A DNA stretch of 64,000 nt. It comes from an uncultured Ruminococcus sp. Its GTDB lineage: Bacteria; Bacillota; Clostridia; Oscillospirales; Acutalibacteraceae. Position numbers and translations under genes: made by a program. The notes beneath the pieces are model-generated. The model ran no database searches. It had not been told where the DNA came from and saw only the letters and a program-made list of their open reading frames with translations. Shown one piece after another: positions 51,972 to 58,626 of the stretch. The stretch's first letter is position 1. Every line of letters starts with the position of its first letter. The stretch lies in contig CACYTI010000011.1 in the NCBI GenBank assembly GCA_902777275.1, forward strand, positions 1-64,000, read 5' to 3'.

Positions 51972-52622
51972 GTGCAGTCGGGCAATTTTTCACTTATCCT
52001 TGAATTTTTTACGAATTCATGTTATAATATAAAAAGCTATAATATCGAGGTTCAGCGCGCCGATTCGGGAGCTATTGCTCAGAGGGCAAGGTATCATTCA
52101 GCTGCTCTCGATGTCAATTCTCTTCCCGGCGGAACACCGTTTGTAAAGCTTCCCGATTCATATGTGATTTTCATCACGGAAAATGATGTGCTGAAAGGCG
52201 GCAAACCGTTATATCATGTTGAGAGAAGCATTATAGAGATATCCGAGCTGTTCAGCGACGGATCGCATATTATTTATGTGAACGGCGCTTATCAAAATAT
52301 AGAAACCGCGATCGGAAAGCTGATACATGACTTCAAGTGCAAAAGCGCCGGAGAAATGCTTTGCGAGCCGATGGCGGAAGTGACCTATAAATTCAAAAAC
52401 ACCGATAAAGGAGTTTATTATATGTGCAAGGCAGTAGAAGAGTACGGATTAAAGCAACTGAACAAAGGCAGAATGGAAGGTAGGATGGAAGGCAAAATGG
52501 AAGGTATATTGGAATCGGTGATAAAGTTTATCAAAAAGGGTAAGCTTTCCTATGAGGAAATTGCCGATAATTTTGATATGCCCGTGGAAGAGGTTCGCAA
52601 GTTGGCGGCACAGACAAACTAA
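51972..52622 (+). pseudogene. Truncated PD-(D/E)XK nuclease-family transposase (Rpn/TIGR01784 type)
   Basis: The recognisable part begins at YNIEVQRADSGAIAQRARYHSA and continues through FVKLPDSYVIFITENDVL and HIIYVNG to a C-terminal Met/Gly/Glu repeat (GRMEGRMEGKMEG) and a DNA-binding-like helix pair (YEEIADNFDMPVEEVRKLA). In this family the first 80-100 residues hold the first catalytic acidic residues; they are missing here, and the frame upstream of YNIEVQ is AT-rich non-coding sequence. It lacks a ribosome site, so it is likely a fragment. The two 24-nt repeats flank it within 10-40 bp, suggesting a duplication or deletion event. Confidence 0.7.
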
Positions 52623-52695: not shown

Positions 52696-52735
52696 AACGA
52701 GCTGTCGCAAAGCAAGCGGCAGCTCGTTGTTTTTT
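52696..52735. terminator. Terminator between the truncated transposase gene and the kinase gene
   Basis: AACGAGCTG (52696-52704) pairs with CAGCTCGTT (52720-52728); GTTTTTTC on the plus side. It touches the kinase stop codon. Confidence 0.7.
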
Positions 52736-54909
52736 CAGCTAAAACTGATTTGTCTTAATTTTGTGCTCTTTGTGCTGTACACATAATCGAAATAGAAGCT
52801 CAGCGCGGTTCCGTCCGAATAGGAATAGTCGAAAATCATTTCGTTATAATCCTCGTGGGAGTACATAAATATCCGATTCGGTTTTCTGAGAACAGAGAGG
52901 ATATCGTCCATATTTGAGCTGTTGTTCAAGCCTTGATAGGAAAAGCCTACTCCGTCAGACGGATCGATATAAACAGAGGTAATTACACAGCTGTTAAGAG
53001 AATGCTTTGAACTTTTTTTGTTTTCAACCCAAGCTCCTGCTGACTTATAATTATAAAACAAATGTATTGATTCACTTTTGCCCGCGTCCAAGCTTATCGG
53101 CGATTCATTCGCGAGCGTATAACCATTTAATATCATTTGGGCGACGGTCGTTTCATCGGGGATCACAGTTGCTCCGCCTTCAAGTTGAATGGAATTCGAC
53201 GGAGCAGAAAAATCATCCTTGCTCTTAATGTTCCATGAGGCACTGCATTCTTCGTAATTGCCGTCTTTATCATAGCTAATATAACCTTGATTTTCCATTT
53301 CATTGGAAGTGTAATCCGACAAATCTAATTTCTGTTCCAGATAATCAACCATAGCTATGAAGACTGCGTTGTCGTGCGCGGCGTCGGGAGATAATGTCCC
53401 TGTCGGCGCGGTCGATGAATTTGAGGAGGCTTCGGTACTTTTTGAGTAGATATTTTTTGCTATATTTACACCTACCGGCACAGCCTCTATCGCATAAATG
53501 CCGGCTAAAATATATACTCCTATCCTGACCCAGAGCGCAAGCGGCTTTAAATAATTGATATTGATACGGTAATTGGCGTAGAGCAGAAAAATAAGTACGG
53601 CGAACATAATTATCAGCGTAGCTGCCAAGTCATTCTCAGCAACAGGCTTGATTGCGGTATTATAAACGATCAATGCAATATGCAGCGCAAGAACAACTCC
53701 CGCGATAACGCGCATCAACGTTCCGGGATAATACTCCTTCTTTTTCGGCTTTGTTTTTTCCTGCTTGATCTGTTCGGGCGGCGTGCTCCAATCGGGCTTT
53801 TTATAATCCTTTGGTGCAGAACCCTGCTTGCGGTCGGCGGGCGACCGTTTTTCCGCGTCCTCCGTTGGTGTGCCGTCCCATATTTTTGAGACCGACTGCT
53901 TGTCAGCATCAAGTGTTTTGTAAGGATCCTTCGTTGAAGCCCCCTGTCCGCCCGTATATGGATTATTCCGCGCAGAGTCAATAAGGTTCAGCAGCTCGGT
54001 CACGCTTTGACAGCGGTCGGCTGAGCGCACTGCAAGACCGTACATGAGCGCTTTTTCCATAGCGGGGGAAATATTGACTCCAAGCTTTGACGGTGGCTTT
54101 AGCCTGTCGTCAGACAGTCTGTCAAGCGATTCATCGGGAACCTTTCCCGTAATGCAGCAGTAAATCGTCGCGCAAAGCCCGTAAACATCCGTCCACGGTC
54201 CCTGCTTGCCGTTGCGCCTGTACTGTTCTTCCGGAGCGAAGCCCGGCTTTAGCATTACCGACATTGAGCGCACGTCGCCGTTAAAGACCTTTGCCGAGCC
54301 GAAGTCCATCAGCTTTATCCCGCCCGACTTCAGCCGCATTATGTTGTCAGGGCTGATGTCGCGGTGGATCATGCCCGCCTTGTGAACCTTTACAAGCGCA
54401 TTCATCACAGGCATTAGCATATCTATCGCCTTGTTAACGCTCATTTTGCCGTTTTTGATCAGATAATCTCTCAGGTCGGTGCCGTTGAGATATTCCATTA
54501 TGATATAAGCCGTGTTGTTTTCGTCGATATAGTCGGTCACGTTAACAATGCCCGGCTCGTCGTTAAACTTCACGAGCGTTTTTGCCTCGGTCAAAAAACG
54601 TGCCTTACCGTGCTCGTATTCATCACGGTCGCTTTCGGTCACGGACACCTTGTTGCCCGCGGCGGAAACGCGGTAGGTGAAGCCGTGAGGGTAATACTCC
54701 TTTATGGCAACATTTACGCCGAGCTTATTGCTTCCCAGATAGGTTATGCCGAAGCCTCCCTCGCCCAATACTCCTATAATTGTGTATCTGCCCCCCAAAA
54801 CCGTGCCCTTCGGCAGGTGGTGCGGCTTTGCTTCCTGAATATTTCCGACATGACAATACGGGCAGATCACAACGTCGCCCTTGTCGCGCTTGCAATTGTT
54901 ACAAATCAT
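52735..54909 (-). CDS. Zinc-ribbon serine/threonine protein kinase with extracellular domain
   Basis: A 724-residue Hanks-type kinase. N-terminal zinc ribbon with Cys3, Cys6, Cys16, Cys19; kinase domain about 38-310: Gly loop LGEGGFGITYLG, Lys70 in VAIKEY, Glu108, catalytic HRDISPDN (Asp184), DFGSAK (Asp202), PGFAPEEQY activation segment, and DVYGLCATIYC. A charged juxtamembrane stretch leads to three membrane helices (about 405-500), and a C-terminal extracellular domain of about 210 residues (strand-rich, no known fold) that may sense a ligand. GAGGGG precedes the ATG at 54909; the longer frame is rejected. It is the last gene of the FHA-ABC operon, behind an internal terminator. Confidence 0.88.
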   Translation of the reverse strand: MICNNCKRDKGDVVICPYCHVGNIQEAKPHHLPKGTVLGGRYTIIGVLGEGGFGITYLGSNKLGVNVAIKEYYPHGFTYRVSAAGNKVSVTESDRDEYEHGKARFLTEAKTLVKFNDEPGIVNVTDYIDENNTAYIIMEYLNGTDLRDYLIKNGKMSVNKAIDMLMPVMNALVKVHKAGMIHRDISPDNIMRLKSGGIKLMDFGSAKVFNGDVRSMSVMLKPGFAPEEQYRRNGKQGPWTDVYGLCATIYCCITGKVPDESLDRLSDDRLKPPSKLGVNISPAMEKALMYGLAVRSADRCQSVTELLNLIDSARNNPYTGGQGASTKDPYKTLDADKQSVSKIWDGTPTEDAEKRSPADRKQGSAPKDYKKPDWSTPPEQIKQEKTKPKKKEYYPGTLMRVIAGVVLALHIALIVYNTAIKPVAENDLAATLIIMFAVLIFLLYANYRININYLKPLALWVRIGVYILAGIYAIEAVPVGVNIAKNIYSKSTEASSNSSTAPTGTLSPDAAHDNAVFIAMVDYLEQKLDLSDYTSNEMENQGYISYDKDGNYEECSASWNIKSKDDFSAPSNSIQLEGGATVIPDETTVAQMILNGYTLANESPISLDAGKSESIHLFYNYKSAGAWVENKKSSKHSLNSCVITSVYIDPSDGVGFSYQGLNNSSNMDDILSVLRKPNRIFMYSHEDYNEMIFDYSYSDGTALSFYFDYVYSTKSTKLRQISFS

Positions 54910-54928
54910 CAAACCCCTCAAATCAAGC

Positions 54929-54957
54929 AAAAAAGCTGCCTGAGATAATACGGCAGC
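54929..54957 (-). terminator. Internal terminator between the 68-residue gene and the kinase gene
   Basis: GCTGCC (54935-54940) pairs with GGCAGC (54952-54957), followed on the minus strand by six T residues. It lies only 20 bp before the kinase ATG, so the kinase is reached by partial readthrough. Confidence 0.75.
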
Positions 54958-54979
54958 CCTTTTGAATTTTCTGTGTATT

Positions 54980-55186
54980 TTATTTCTTCGCAAACGGGTT
55001 GGGGATATTGCCCAAGAAGCCCTTTGACTGCTTGATGATATCCTTTGCCTGAGACTTGTCCATGCCGAACTTTGCGTTGAGCTCGTCGGCGATCTTATTC
55101 TCGTCGCCGCCGCTCATAACGATTTCAGCGATTTTACCGATATCATCCATACTAAAGCCCATTTTGCTCAAAAACGAAAAATCCAT
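54980..55186 (-). CDS. 68-residue protein of the phospho-signalling operon
   Basis: A small protein with two predicted helices (SMDDIGKIAEIVMSGG; ENKIADELNAKFGMDKSQAKDIIKQSKGFLG) and a Pro/Phe-rich end (NIPNPFAKK). AAGGAGG before the ATG is strong. It lies 18 bp after the PP2C gene and just before the internal terminator. I do not recognise the family. It could be a kinase or phosphatase adaptor, but nothing in the sequence proves this. A good ribosome site and placement make it a real gene. Confidence 0.72.
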   Translation of the reverse strand: MDFSFLSKMGFSMDDIGKIAEIVMSGGDENKIADELNAKFGMDKSQAKDIIKQSKGFLGNIPNPFAKK

Positions 55187-55203
55187 TTCTGTTCCTCCTT
55201 GTA

Positions 55204-56022
55204 TTATTTAGCCCGTTCAACCAACACGCAGGTCACGTTGTCGTTGCCACCGTGGTTAAGCGCGGCTCTGACAAGCTCCATTGTGGGGCTATCGGGATTG
55301 TTTACTATTATTTCCTGAATCTCATCCTTTGTAAGCTCGTCATAAAGACCGTCACTGCACAGCAGAAGCTTGTCGTGCTTCTTGAGCAACACAGGCTCAT
55401 AAAACAGCGGGGACACACCCTGACGGTAGTAATCCACGCCGAGAAAAGCAGTCAGCTTGTGGCTGTCGTTGCTTTGCTCCGCCTCCTCAAGCGTGTAGAT
55501 GTTCGCCTCGTACTTCTTCATTGCAAGCGTCTGGTCTTTGGATATCTGTGACAGGGAACCGTCGCGCAGCAGATATATCCTGCTGTCGCCGAGCGAGAAC
55601 GGGTAAATAACTCCGTTTCTTATTACAGCAGCAGCTACGGTGCTGCCGCCTGTGCGGCACTTGTTCTCCTCCAGAAAATTGCGGATCTCGTCGTTGGCGC
55701 TCTGAATAAACACGCTGACCAGCTCGTCCATCGGCTTGTCGGGAGAATCCTTGAGCATACTGTACAGCCCCTTTGCTATCTGAGACGAAATGAACGAGGC
55801 GTACTCACCCTTTGACTCGCCCCCCATTCCGTCAAAAACGGCGGCAAGCAAGGGCGCCTGATGCTCGGACTCAAAGCTGACATTCTTGTATTCAAGCTTC
55901 TTAGACACACTGTTGATTGTGAAATTGTCTTCATTATTGCTGCGAACCAACCCCTTGTGGGTAGTCAGAAAAACCTTGTACCGCTCAGCCGACGCAGCAG
56001 CTTTTTTCTCATTTTGCTCCAT
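55204..56022 (-). CDS. PP2C-type serine/threonine phosphatase (PrpC/Stp family)
   Basis: A 272-residue Mg2+/Mn2+-dependent phosphatase. Motifs are RSNNEDNF (Glu31, Asp32), AVFDGMGGESKG (Asp64, Gly65), TGGSTVAAA, SLGDSRIYLLRDG, LCSDGLYDEL and GGNDNVTCVLVE, which together bind the binuclear metal centre. It should reverse the phosphorylation by the kinase encoded two genes downstream. It is a soluble protein. It is cotranscribed with the FHA-ABC pair upstream. There is no strong ribosome site at the ATG, so coupling to the preceding gene is plausible. Confidence 0.92.
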   Translation of the reverse strand: MEQNEKKAAASAERYKVFLTTHKGLVRSNNEDNFTINSVSKKLEYKNVSFESEHQAPLLAAVFDGMGGESKGEYASFISSQIAKGLYSMLKDSPDKPMDELVSVFIQSANDEIRNFLEENKCRTGGSTVAAAVIRNGVIYPFSLGDSRIYLLRDGSLSQISKDQTLAMKKYEANIYTLEEAEQSNDSHKLTAFLGVDYYRQGVSPLFYEPVLLKKHDKLLLCSDGLYDELTKDEIQEIIVNNPDSPTMELVRAALNHGGNDNVTCVLVERAK

Positions 56023-56034
56023 ATCATTTACCGA

Positions 56035-56889
56035 TCAAGAATCTTTGTTTCTCAGTTTTAATGCAACTATACTTGCCGCTATGTTGAAAGCGGTGATCAA
56101 TATACACGCGCCCCACGCCGCTAACAGCCTGATAACCTCCGGCTTGTAGAAATCGCTTGCCATCGCGTTTGAAATAGTTATCATCTGTGTTTCGGGTGAT
56201 TTCGCAAGCGCCTGCTGAACGCCCGTTGGGATCGAGTTCAGGTCACACTCACAGCCGAACGCCGACATTCCCCACTTGCTGAGAGTAATATACGAAAATG
56301 CTTCGGAAGCGCCCGAAAGACTGAACAGCACGCCGCTCATTACAAGCTGAACGATGAGCACAAACGGCATAATAGTCATGGCGGTAGTCGGTGTGCTCGA
56401 AATCGAAGAGATCATAAGACCCAGCACCGCCGCACCGAAGGTGAGCAGATAAATCGTGATAAAGTTTTCGACATACACCGAGATCAAAAGATGTGCGGGT
56501 GACTTGTCAAACTTCATAAAGATACAGCAGATAATAAATATTACTATCGTCTGAGCCAAACAGAGCAGCGCCTGCCACAGCACATGGGCGGCAACATAAG
56601 ATGACATCTTCATCCCCTGGCGGTACTCCGCGCGGATTATCTCATGCTCCTTGCATATACTCTGGATCGAGTTGAATATGCCTATCCAGATACAAGCCGA
56701 AGCGAGTGTGAAAAAGCCTGAATTTGTACAATCAAAGTTTGCGAACATATCGGGTCCCGTGATCAGCGCGACGATTGATGAAATTATCGCGGCAAACACC
56801 AGATACTTCCATGAGTTTTCACGAAGCGCGATCCTGAACAATTTTTTAAAATATACATGCGTCTGAACGGCGAAAGAGGTATCATTCAT
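56035..56889 (-). CDS. ABC-2-type permease partner of the FHA ATPase
   Basis: A 284-residue membrane protein with about six helices (for example YLVFAAIISSIVALITG, IVIFIICCIFMKF, IYLLTFGAAVLGLMISSI, TAMTIMPFVLIVQLVMSGVLF, LAAWGACILITAFNIAASIVAL). The layout matches ABC-2/ABCG-type permeases. AAGGAG precedes the ATG at 56889; the frame from 56958 overlaps the upstream gene too far. It overlaps the FHA-ABC stop by 8 bp, so the two subunits are coupled. The substrate is not evident. Confidence 0.85.
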   Translation of the reverse strand: MNDTSFAVQTHVYFKKLFRIALRENSWKYLVFAAIISSIVALITGPDMFANFDCTNSGFFTLASACIWIGIFNSIQSICKEHEIIRAEYRQGMKMSSYVAAHVLWQALLCLAQTIVIFIICCIFMKFDKSPAHLLISVYVENFITIYLLTFGAAVLGLMISSISSTPTTAMTIMPFVLIVQLVMSGVLFSLSGASEAFSYITLSKWGMSAFGCECDLNSIPTGVQQALAKSPETQMITISNAMASDFYKPEVIRLLAAWGACILITAFNIAASIVALKLRNKDS

Positions 56890-58429
56890 ATACAGGTCTC
56901 CTTTGTGCTGAGTAGTACTTCTCAATATAATAGTCGGCTCTGCCCTTGCCGCCCTCATAAGGCGGATTGATTTCTATCATAATATCCTGAAGCTTATTAA
57001 CGCCGAAATGCTCCTTTGCCTCGTCAACACCGCCGAAGAATGCCAGGTGTCCCGCGTTGTCCTTTGAGCTTTTGGCGAGAACGACAACCTTATTGAACAG
57101 CGAACGACCCGTATCAACATCTATGGCGTCATCGGGCTCGTGCGAAATAACCATTACTATTTTGTCGTTTGTTGCTATTTCTTTAAGGATCTCCATTTGC
57201 TGAGTACGCGAGGCGGCGTCAAGTCCCGAATCGGGCTCGTCGCAGATAAATACCTTCTGGAAGCCCACAAGCTGGTAGGCAACCGCGACCTTCTTTTTCT
57301 GTCCGCCGCTGAGCTGTCTTATAAGGTGGTTTTCAAGGTTCTTGATTCCGACCTTTTGCATAATATCGTCGATTCGTCTCAGCTTCTCTTCCTTTGAGTA
57401 GTTCTTGCGGTCAAGCTTGATGTCTGCGATGTCCATTAATGTGTTTTTGACCGTGTCGTTGACCCTGAGAGTCAAAAACTGCGGGACAAGACCGATCTGC
57501 GACTTCATGCTCTTGAAGTTCTCGTAAAGGTTCTGACCGTTCAGGATTATGCGTCCGTCCGCTTTGCCGTCGCCCAGAATGGCTTTTACAAGCGTTGTTT
57601 TGCCCGCGCCCGAGCCGCCGAGGATCAGCACGAAATCTCCGCTGTCTACCTGGAAACGAATGTCGCGAAGCAGGGTTTTTCTGCCGAAATCGACCGTCTT
57701 TTTTTCTATGCGCACAACAAGATTGCCCGTGCTCTCTCTCGGATTGTTAAAAATCAGCGTATTGCCGATTATAATAATAGTTGTGTTTGCAAGCTTGATA
57801 ACGTCATGGTCGCATACATGGCTGCTGCCCTCAACCCCCTTGCCGTTAACGCTTACACCGTTCTGGCTGTTGTTGTCAAACAAAGTCCACCCGTTGTTGC
57901 TTCGGCTGAGAATAGCGTGCTCGCGTGAGGCTGCGAGGTCGGTCAGGCGGATCACATTGTTTTCGCCTCTTCCGATCGTTATGTTGACAAGTCTGCTCGT
58001 GTTAAACAGCCTCCAAGACTCATCGTAGCGCAAACTGGTACAAAAAATCATAAGAACCGCTTCGGGATGAGGCTGATTAAGTGTTTTGCGGTCAACACGG
58101 ATAATATCTCCGTCGGTAAGGCGGCAGGCGCGTGAGCCGCGCTCGTTGTACCGCTGTAACTTTTTGCCGTTTATATAGGTACCGTTCAGGCTGTTGTTGT
58201 CTATATAATAATACACACCCTCGCTGTCGTCGTACACAAACTCGCCGTGACGCCTGCCCACGATTGCGGATTGTACGGTGATATCACACATGGGACCCTG
58301 GTAAATCCGACCGAAGGTCATATCTCCCCTGAGCGGAACCACCCTTGGCTGACATCTGTAATCCACAATAAGCAGTGTCGCGGGGAGCACCGGAGCCGGA
58401 TGGTAATACATTGTTCTTTGCAGTTCCAT
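56882..58429 (-). CDS. ABC ATPase with two N-terminal FHA domains
   Basis: A 515-residue protein. FHA1 (about 36-112) has GRIYQ (Arg41), RRHGEF (Arg60, His61) and LNGTYING (Asn82). FHA2 (about 146-222) has GRGENN (Arg154), SREHA (Ser168, His171) and SQNGVSVNG (Asn190), the full phosphothreonine-binding set. An ABC ATPase follows (about 238-480): Walker A GGSGAGKTT at 271-279, signature LSGGQKKKVAVA, Walker B VFICDEPDSGLD. The ATPase-plus-ABC-2 pairing is of the ABCG/NatA type. It resembles mycobacterial Rv1747, where two FHA domains precede an ABC exporter and are bound after phosphorylation by PknF. It starts the operon. Confidence 0.9.
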   Translation of the reverse strand: MELQRTMYYHPAPVLPATLLIVDYRCQPRVVPLRGDMTFGRIYQGPMCDITVQSAIVGRRHGEFVYDDSEGVYYYIDNNSLNGTYINGKKLQRYNERGSRACRLTDGDIIRVDRKTLNQPHPEAVLMIFCTSLRYDESWRLFNTSRLVNITIGRGENNVIRLTDLAASREHAILSRSNNGWTLFDNNSQNGVSVNGKGVEGSSHVCDHDVIKLANTTIIIIGNTLIFNNPRESTGNLVVRIEKKTVDFGRKTLLRDIRFQVDSGDFVLILGGSGAGKTTLVKAILGDGKADGRIILNGQNLYENFKSMKSQIGLVPQFLTLRVNDTVKNTLMDIADIKLDRKNYSKEEKLRRIDDIMQKVGIKNLENHLIRQLSGGQKKKVAVAYQLVGFQKVFICDEPDSGLDAASRTQQMEILKEIATNDKIVMVISHEPDDAIDVDTGRSLFNKVVVLAKSSKDNAGHLAFFGGVDEAKEHFGVNKLQDIMIEINPPYEGGKGRADYYIEKYYSAQRRPVYE

Positions 58430-58626
58430 TTTTTAACCCCTATTGTTTTTAGTCATTTCTTCTTTTATTTTACACTGTGCAAATACACATGTCAAGTTTT
58501 TTGGTGCAAACATTTTGTGTTTGTTTTCAACAAATACTTTTCATTCAAACGCTGTTGCTGTTATTGACACTTTGTTATTTATGTATTATTATAAAGCTAT
58601 ATCAAAGAAAGGAGTTTTTTGGAAAT

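Follow-up and report, generated by a model that had tools for sequence, protein, structure and literature searches.

Does the run of genes on the minus strand at positions 58429-52735 of a contig from an uncultured Ruminococcus sp. encode an exporter switched by Ser/Thr phosphorylation, or do a kinase and a phosphatase simply lie beside an ABC transporter? The window referred to here is the whole 64,000-nucleotide (nt) stretch analyzed, from contig CACYTI010000011.1, and coordinates are positions in it. The run comprises, in order, an FHA-FHA-ABC ATPase, an ABC-2 permease, a PP2C phosphatase, a helical protein of 68 amino acids (aa), and a zinc-ribbon Ser/Thr kinase (Table 1). A first-pass annotation had described these five open reading frames (ORFs) as a phospho-signalling operon, and their place, strand, and order were borne out, as were their domains by Pfam (FHA twice and ABC_tran; ABC2_membrane; PP2C/PP2C_2; Pkinase), except for the 68-aa protein, which had no Pfam match over the cut-off. 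The cassette is real and recurrent, and we consider it probable that it works as a phospho-switched exporter, the kinase phosphorylating a threonine (T6) in the N-terminal tail of the ATPase, an FHA domain capturing it, and PP2C reversing the modification.

In the mechanism we propose, the ATPase and its separate permease would assemble as an ABCG-like exporter, a Ser/Thr kinase would phosphorylate the conserved tail threonine, and the phospho-tail would be bound by an FHA domain (FHA2 being the canonical one) of the same or the partner subunit. Capture of the tail would change how the ATPase dimer works with the permease, and the cassette PP2C would take the phosphate off. In the clade to which the window belongs, the kinase would act from elsewhere in the genome, where there are several paralogs, with the 68-aa protein as an accessory; in the window itself, a kinase of another lineage would have been set behind the usual end of the operon. 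That phosphorylation switches transport, as first suggested, is still something we infer, together with the direction of the effect and the cargo, and the tail threonine offers a concrete candidate site.

A Recurrent Cassette

Genes 1-4 overlap or lie at most 20 nt apart, downstream of a promoter-like site. The permease starts at the ATG at 56889, which gives an 8-nt overlap with the FHA-ABC gene, and the kinase at the ATG at 54909 (MICNNC...ICPYC) rather than at the start of a longer mechanical ORF. The motifs that define ABC ATPases (Walker A and B, signature, H-loop), kinases (HRD, DFG, APE), and PP2C phosphatases are all present in the window proteins when read by eye.

A scan of named genomes gave 63 FHA-ABC loci, in uncultured Ruminococcus, R. 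flavefaciens, Gemmiger, Christensenellaceae, Lachnospiraceae, and other Clostridia assemblies, several of which carry names of rumen, colon, or rectum samples. Flanking genes were counted as hidden Markov model (HMM) matches on the same strand within 6 kb; because our home-made ORF caller tends to pick long antisense ORFs where GC content is high, the numbers were taken from HMM and tblastn mapping, and the kinase HMM was grown from the zinc-ribbon type, so that counts of other kinases may be low. Beside FHA-ABC stood a permease at 59 loci, PP2C at 49, a kinase at 31, and the 68-aa gene at 14; at the 42 loci flanked on either side by 3.5 kb or more (full-flank loci) the corresponding figures were 40, 36, 23, and 11. 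In Ruminococcus the kinase gene lies either before or after the series FHA-ABC, permease, PP2C, the set being kept while its order varies, and the order PP2C, FHA-ABC, permease, kinase occurs at Gemmiger/Christensenellaceae loci (L165, L167, L168, L169). Parts of the earlier description thus proved too specific: the exact five-gene order, sought in other Clostridia, was found in the window only; the zinc ribbon does not define the kinase, as one group of linked kinases has it and another (R. flavefaciens and others) does not; and the 68-aa protein is not a standing member.

In a family sample, 5 of 150 genomes had an FHA-ABC match at E ≤ 1e-40, and in a genus sample 22 of 100 at E ≤ 1e-30, the window genome included in both. 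A kinase relative (E ≤ 1e-40) was present in all 22 of the latter, which include a decayed copy in G162 and a distant match in G202, vs. 16 of the 78 genomes without FHA-ABC (Fisher p 3e-12, uncorrected for kinship). Genomes lacking an FHA-ABC match can have a PP2C-kinase pair too (G232, G170). Across 394 genomes of the order, 14 matched the double-FHA profile at E ≤ 1e-29, and by open-frame length 6 of these were assigned to the split form (487-548 aa) and 8 to a form fused with the permease (772-817 aa). Open frames of about 1500 aa with a single FHA match (G583, G149, G396, G459, G599, G470) may be EssC-like proteins.

The Tail and FHA Domains of the ATPase

The majority of FHA-ABC proteins start with a short tail, M-x(1-4)-[K/R]-T-[V/M/I]-Y-Y-x-P, ahead of FHA1. 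Among 60 aligned proteins the tail threonine, T6 in the window, is kept in 54 (five gaps, one Glu), with Tyr at +3 in 48 and Phe in 5 more, and Pro at +5 in 45, while most remaining positions are variable. All four Thr codons are in use (ACA 23, ACC 12, ACG 10, and ACT 6, together 51 of 53 sequences), indicating conservation of the amino acid rather than of the DNA; these 53 come from 64 FHA-ABC sequences, after exclusion of those with an N-terminus that was truncated, masked, unclear, or deviating in the tail (L153, L156, L157, L158, L161, L162, L163, L164, L171, L172, L173). In the predicted structure the first ten residues are modeled as disordered, with a mean predicted local distance difference test (pLDDT) score of 52, and the FHA domains mostly score 80-92; the linker between them is short and modeled with strands, in a block of pLDDT 74-93 over residues 111-150. 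The residues with which FHA2 would contact phosphothreonine (pThr) are nearly invariant (R in 60, S in 59, H in 59, and N in 59 of 60).

A natural fusion joins these elements in one polypeptide: at L140:8510-11353, a single continuous ORF runs from a kinase through the sequence SETIYYKP to FHA, FHA, and ABC domains. Fused FHA-ABC-permease proteins carry an N-terminal [KR]-T-x-x-[FY] tail in six of the nine examined (G385 and G316 were left out). As for the ABCG-like architecture, Foldseek ranks 1-6 were ABCG16, ABCG25, and ABCG5/8, at about 23% identity and over the ATPase part; TIGR00955 was the best NCBIfam match of both ATPase and permease, far under its cut-off, and ABCA3 was the best PDB match in a sequence search.

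The tail was also considered as a motif common throughout the genome, and this was rejected, since its DNA pattern had 14 matches in the window's own genome vs. 30 for a reversed control, and only that of FHA-ABC stands at most a few residues into a long ORF. A decaying copy of the cassette is seen at L162/L078, where an FHA-FHA fragment with a degenerate FHA2 lies directly 5′ of PP2C, the ABC and permease parts being gone.

Table 1. Positions of the cassette features in the window.
Feature	Positions	Strand	Remark
Promoter-like TTGACA-17-TAAAAT before FHA-ABC gene	58467..58495	-	Similar site in 16/16 relatives
FHA-FHA-ABC ATPase, 515 aa	56882..58429	-	
Thr6 codon, N-terminal tail RTMYYHP, proposed phospho-acceptor	58412..58414	-	
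FHA domain 1, VGRRH with Gly at the usual pThr-contacting Ser place	58094..58318	-	
FHA domain 2, canonical R/S/H/N	57791..57982	-	PDB match 6cah
ABC ATPase domain (Pfam ABC_tran)	57230..57670	-	
ABC-2 type permease, 284 aa	56035..56889	-	
PP2C-type phosphatase, 272 aa	55204..56022	-	
68-aa all-helical protein without threonine or cysteine	54980..55186	-	
Terminator-like hairpin, gap between 68-aa gene and kinase gene	54928..54964	-	
Zinc-ribbon Ser/Thr kinase, 724 aa, 3 predicted transmembrane (TM) helices, C-terminal domain without Pfam match	52735..54909	-	

Kinases, Operon Boundaries, and Competing Readings

The kinases linked to FHA-ABC are of mixed descent. In a tree of 89 kinase-domain rows (84 different), in which rows from genome searches were scored as unlinked though L095 and L107 are identical to linked ones, the linked kinases fall in several lineages, and the well-supported branches require at least 10 changes of the label "linked." Seven of ten linked kinases tested (L128, L138, L143, L145, L149, L155, L160) have a PASTA, SH3_3, C-type lectin, or F5/8 type C ectodomain, with PASTA in three of the ten; the kinase of L157 carries TPRs, and those of the window and L169 had no Pfam match outside the kinase domain. 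Outside the ten, the kinase of L168 had no such match either. The C-terminal part of the window kinase is predicted to be extracellular from its TM helices. Twelve distinct neighbor proteins, chosen by hand from the full set, were put to Pfam. They included four Peptidase_M15 D-Ala-D-Ala dipeptidases (L137, L138, L154, and L193, the last beside a kinase-PP2C pair), C39-like peptidases (L127, L143), a beta-lactamase-like protein (L134), an SH3_3 protein (L145), and a DUF4097 protein (L144); those of L128 (weak YkuD), L165, and L169 had no match over the cut-off. The ectodomains and some of the kinase-linked secreted proteins point to a cell-wall signal, with peptidoglycan suggested at some loci rather than at all.

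Upstream of FHA-ABC, all 16 relatives examined (L111-L126) have a TTGACA-17-TANAAT or TAATAT site, matching at 10 or 11 of 12 positions. Between its -35 and -10 lies a conserved GCACAGTGTA (or TTCACAGTGTA), both at 58460-58500 of the window and in L111-L122; this element is nearly palindromic with the -10 and operator-like, as for a putative repressor. At L123-L126, just AAGTGTA or so of it is left.

Several observations weigh against a phospho-switched exporter, or limit how widely it could apply. FHA1 has Gly in place of the Ser that usually contacts pThr in 30 of 60 proteins (Ser in 28). In the L140 fusion, Walker A, signature, and H-loop residues are missing from the ABC part, and the ORF is open up to the end of the contig. 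The tail motif is absent from three of the nine fused proteins (L010, L012, L207) and from four of five further split FHA-ABC proteins (L200, the same protein as L009, and L201, L202, L203), and the split protein L199 has K-T and no aromatic residue. Nor do the motif and the gene linkage always go together. Neither PP2C nor kinase was found at 5 of the 42 full-flank loci; three of these (L135, L141, L166) retain the motif and two (L158, L173) lack it, and L139, which has PP2C as well as a kinase, shows Asn for the tail Thr. In G173 (genome 81% complete), PP2C and the 68-aa gene are kept at a locus without FHA-ABC or permease, and no kinase match was found. Finally, in the window the kinase gene lies behind a hairpin, and the closest relatives of its product are unlinked to FHA-ABC.

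The last two points bear on the best-placed alternative, which we hold to be unlikely: that the window kinase is an unrelated neighbor with expression of its own, the transporter being regulated only by kinases elsewhere and PP2C serving as their common phosphatase. The hairpin (11-nt loop, U-run, -20.6 kcal/mol, z -2.25) folds better than most shuffled sequences (8 of 200 fold equally well); it went unlisted in an automatic terminator scan that took loops of 3-8 only. A strong hairpin lies 3′ of the 68-aa gene in several relatives too (14 relatives, in some of which it is weak and in one of which the contig ends immediately). A terminator-like hairpin before the kinase makes its equal co-expression with the operon doubtful, and the 68-aa gene itself contains a promoter-like site (10 of 12) at 55062-55035. 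None of the 14 loci with the 68-aa gene, 11 of them full-flank, showed a same-strand kinase gene inside 6 kb, whereas 23 of the 31 other full-flank loci did. The window kinase itself belongs to a ten-row set (100/97 support); the nine further rows stand for seven distinct kinases from other genomes (two duplicated), all unlinked. In five of these seven genomes FHA-ABC is matched on a contig other than that of the kinase, and the remaining two (G172, G192) lack a match at E ≤ 1e-30. Other kinases are also at hand: in the own genome (2.59 Mb, 57 contigs), 12 kinases scored above the cut-off, and eight, the window kinase included, match the window kinase at E ≤ 1e-40. Against these stand two FHA proteins and two PP2C proteins, one PP2C in the cassette and the other adjoining a PrkC-like kinase on contig C19. 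However, just 18 nt separate the hairpin from the kinase ATG, so the kinase mRNA must begin upstream of the hairpin, and kinases of several lineages repeatedly adjoin the cassette. The proposed tie of kinase and phosphatase to FHA-ABC stands as far as recurring sets in several orders and kinase lineages, and one fusion, are concerned; it is equal co-expression that the hairpin calls into question. With its nearest relatives unlinked, the window kinase looks recruited, and in our reading it joined a clade from whose loci the kinase had been lost; it lies behind what appears to be an ordinary operon end, and is probably made by read-through.

Two observations on the surroundings may be added. 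The own genome shows a kinase expansion within 2.6 Mb against just two PP2C matches, and zinc-ribbon kinases stand in tandem, two or three together, at G000:C28:51160-55873 (L030) and on C1 (L033), those at L033 having single-TM proteins next to them. An Rpn/PD-(D/E)XK transposase-like ORF (below cut-off) at 51972-52622 converges on the kinase end; it had no match among the ORFs of L059-L080 and could mark an insertion that brought the kinase.

It is also possible, if rather improbable in our view, that the FHA domains read pThr on other proteins, such as the kinase juxtamembrane stretch, stress proteins, or envelope enzymes, and recruit them, the tail Thr serving otherwise. The FHA I domain of Rv1747 binds another protein, Rv2623, via phospho-T237 (PMC5549992), and the juxtamembrane stretch of the window kinase holds 9 Thr in 106 residues. 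However, the tail Thr is nearly invariant, whereas T-[VIMAL]-[YF]-[YFHL], the one motif looked for there, is not common to the juxtamembrane stretches of linked kinases.

The 68-aa gene marks one clade, and its product is all-helical in a moderate-confidence model (pLDDT 74.9). Small, helical, and adjoining an exporter, it might be a bacteriocin-like peptide cargo of the transporter; one weak structural match (rank 24, E 4.1) was to NKR-5-3B, which we take to be a circular bacteriocin. We consider this very improbable and reject it: the sequence is conserved rather than diversifying (79-96% identity to the window copy in nine relatives, 34-37% in four), it contains 10 basic and 10 acidic residues and no cysteine, and the model had no structural match at E ≤ 0.001. 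The gene is moreover found at 14 of 63 exporter loci only, and weak homologs (35-37%) occupy the same SLC5-alr-polA place in G232 and G216 with neither PP2C nor FHA-ABC beside them; a further weak match in G210 is at a different place. A profile search of the PDB gave 13 matches at E ≤ 1, the top three of them (E 3e-7 to 1e-4) to designed repeat proteins. As it has no threonine, the protein is an unlikely FHA ligand, and we take it for a putative accessory in one clade.

Least probable of all, and rejected, is an anti-phage or conflict system. Among PADLOC models, PD-T4-6 and mad6 were matched by the kinase (best E 5e-46), and mad3 (2e-24) and mad8 (3e-11) by the FHA-ABC protein; systems that combine a zinc-ribbon kinase with PP2C and vWA are on record (PMC7159879; vWA genes were not searched for here). 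However, the matched stretches are kinase and ATPase domains common to many families, no PADLOC model was matched by the permease, PP2C, or the 68-aa protein, and the full partner set of MADS or PD-T4-6 was not found. One clade, moreover, mostly has a constant site next to alr-polA, which would not be expected of a mobile defence island. On viral contigs, four pattern matches were obtained, none related to the window kinase.

Relation to Known Systems

The closest known system is Rv1747-PknF of Mycobacterium tuberculosis, and the analogy drawn at first is apt, as in a PDB sequence comparison the FHA region matched an FHA domain of Rv1747 best (6cah), aligned to FHA2. The cassette shares with it two FHA domains N-terminal to an exporter ABC ATPase and, in the window (past the hairpin) and at 31 of 63 loci, an adjacent Ser/Thr kinase gene. 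In Rv1747, in contrast, the permease is fused in the chain, whereas it is separate here; sequence and model of the window protein have no long disordered inter-FHA linker; the conserved N-terminal Thr tail is a feature of the cassette; and PP2C is encoded inside it, beside a kinase often of the zinc-ribbon type. The mycobacterial PstP is encoded elsewhere in the genome. The pknF gene adjoins Rv1747 in a two-gene operon (PMC3908365), outside of which PstP must therefore lie, and PknF phosphorylation promotes condensates of the Rv1747 FHA region, which PstP reverses (PMC9312465). With both the fused permease and the disordered linker missing, we do not file the cassette as an Rv1747-type member; it is Rv1747/PknF-like in outline, and FHA-controlled ABC export in a new form.

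Proteins whose FHA domains bind their own N-terminal tails offer a second comparison. GarA, OdhI, and Bdellovibrio DgcB do so; in DgcB the +3 residue is important, and a kinase-tail-FHA-GGDEF fusion from another organism is mentioned (PMC6733907). Like these, the FHA-ABC proteins have a seemingly disordered tail with a conserved Thr ahead of an FHA domain, and the pThr residues of FHA2 are present; unlike them, the output is a membrane transporter, there are two FHA domains, and self-binding of the tail is proposed by analogy. The fused FHA-ABC-permease proteins, from the same taxonomic order, have the same domains in one polypeptide, with kinase and PP2C nearby in G131 and a kinase in G036. 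The kinase-PP2C pairing and the PASTA domains of some linked kinases also recall PrkC/Stp1, a PASTA kinase with a PP2C. The pair on C19, presumably PrkC/Stp-like from its neighborhood, stands apart in the own genome, with no FHA-ABC gene in that stretch.

New here are the conserved tail motif with T6, the kinase-tail-FHA-FHA-ABC fusion, and linked kinases with PASTA, SH3, lectin, or F5/8 ectodomains. A literature search, covering titles and abstract openings with subscription papers mostly beyond reach, gave no paper describing the cassette. More tentatively, it may represent a self-switch of a transporter through its own FHA domains, in which envelope-sensing kinases would act on the tail Thr, the protein's own FHA domain would bind it within the subunit or across the ATPase dimer, and resetting would fall to a dedicated PP2C, forming an Oscillospirales-type cell-wall maintenance module with kinases of different lineages swapped in and out.

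Phosphorylation control of an ABC exporter has, to our knowledge, been studied mainly on one mycobacterial protein. The cassette offers a compact, testable system for such control in commensal gut and rumen bacteria, with its candidate parts named: T6 as the site, FHA2 as the reader, PP2C as the eraser, and kinases with cell-wall-binding ectodomains as the sensor.

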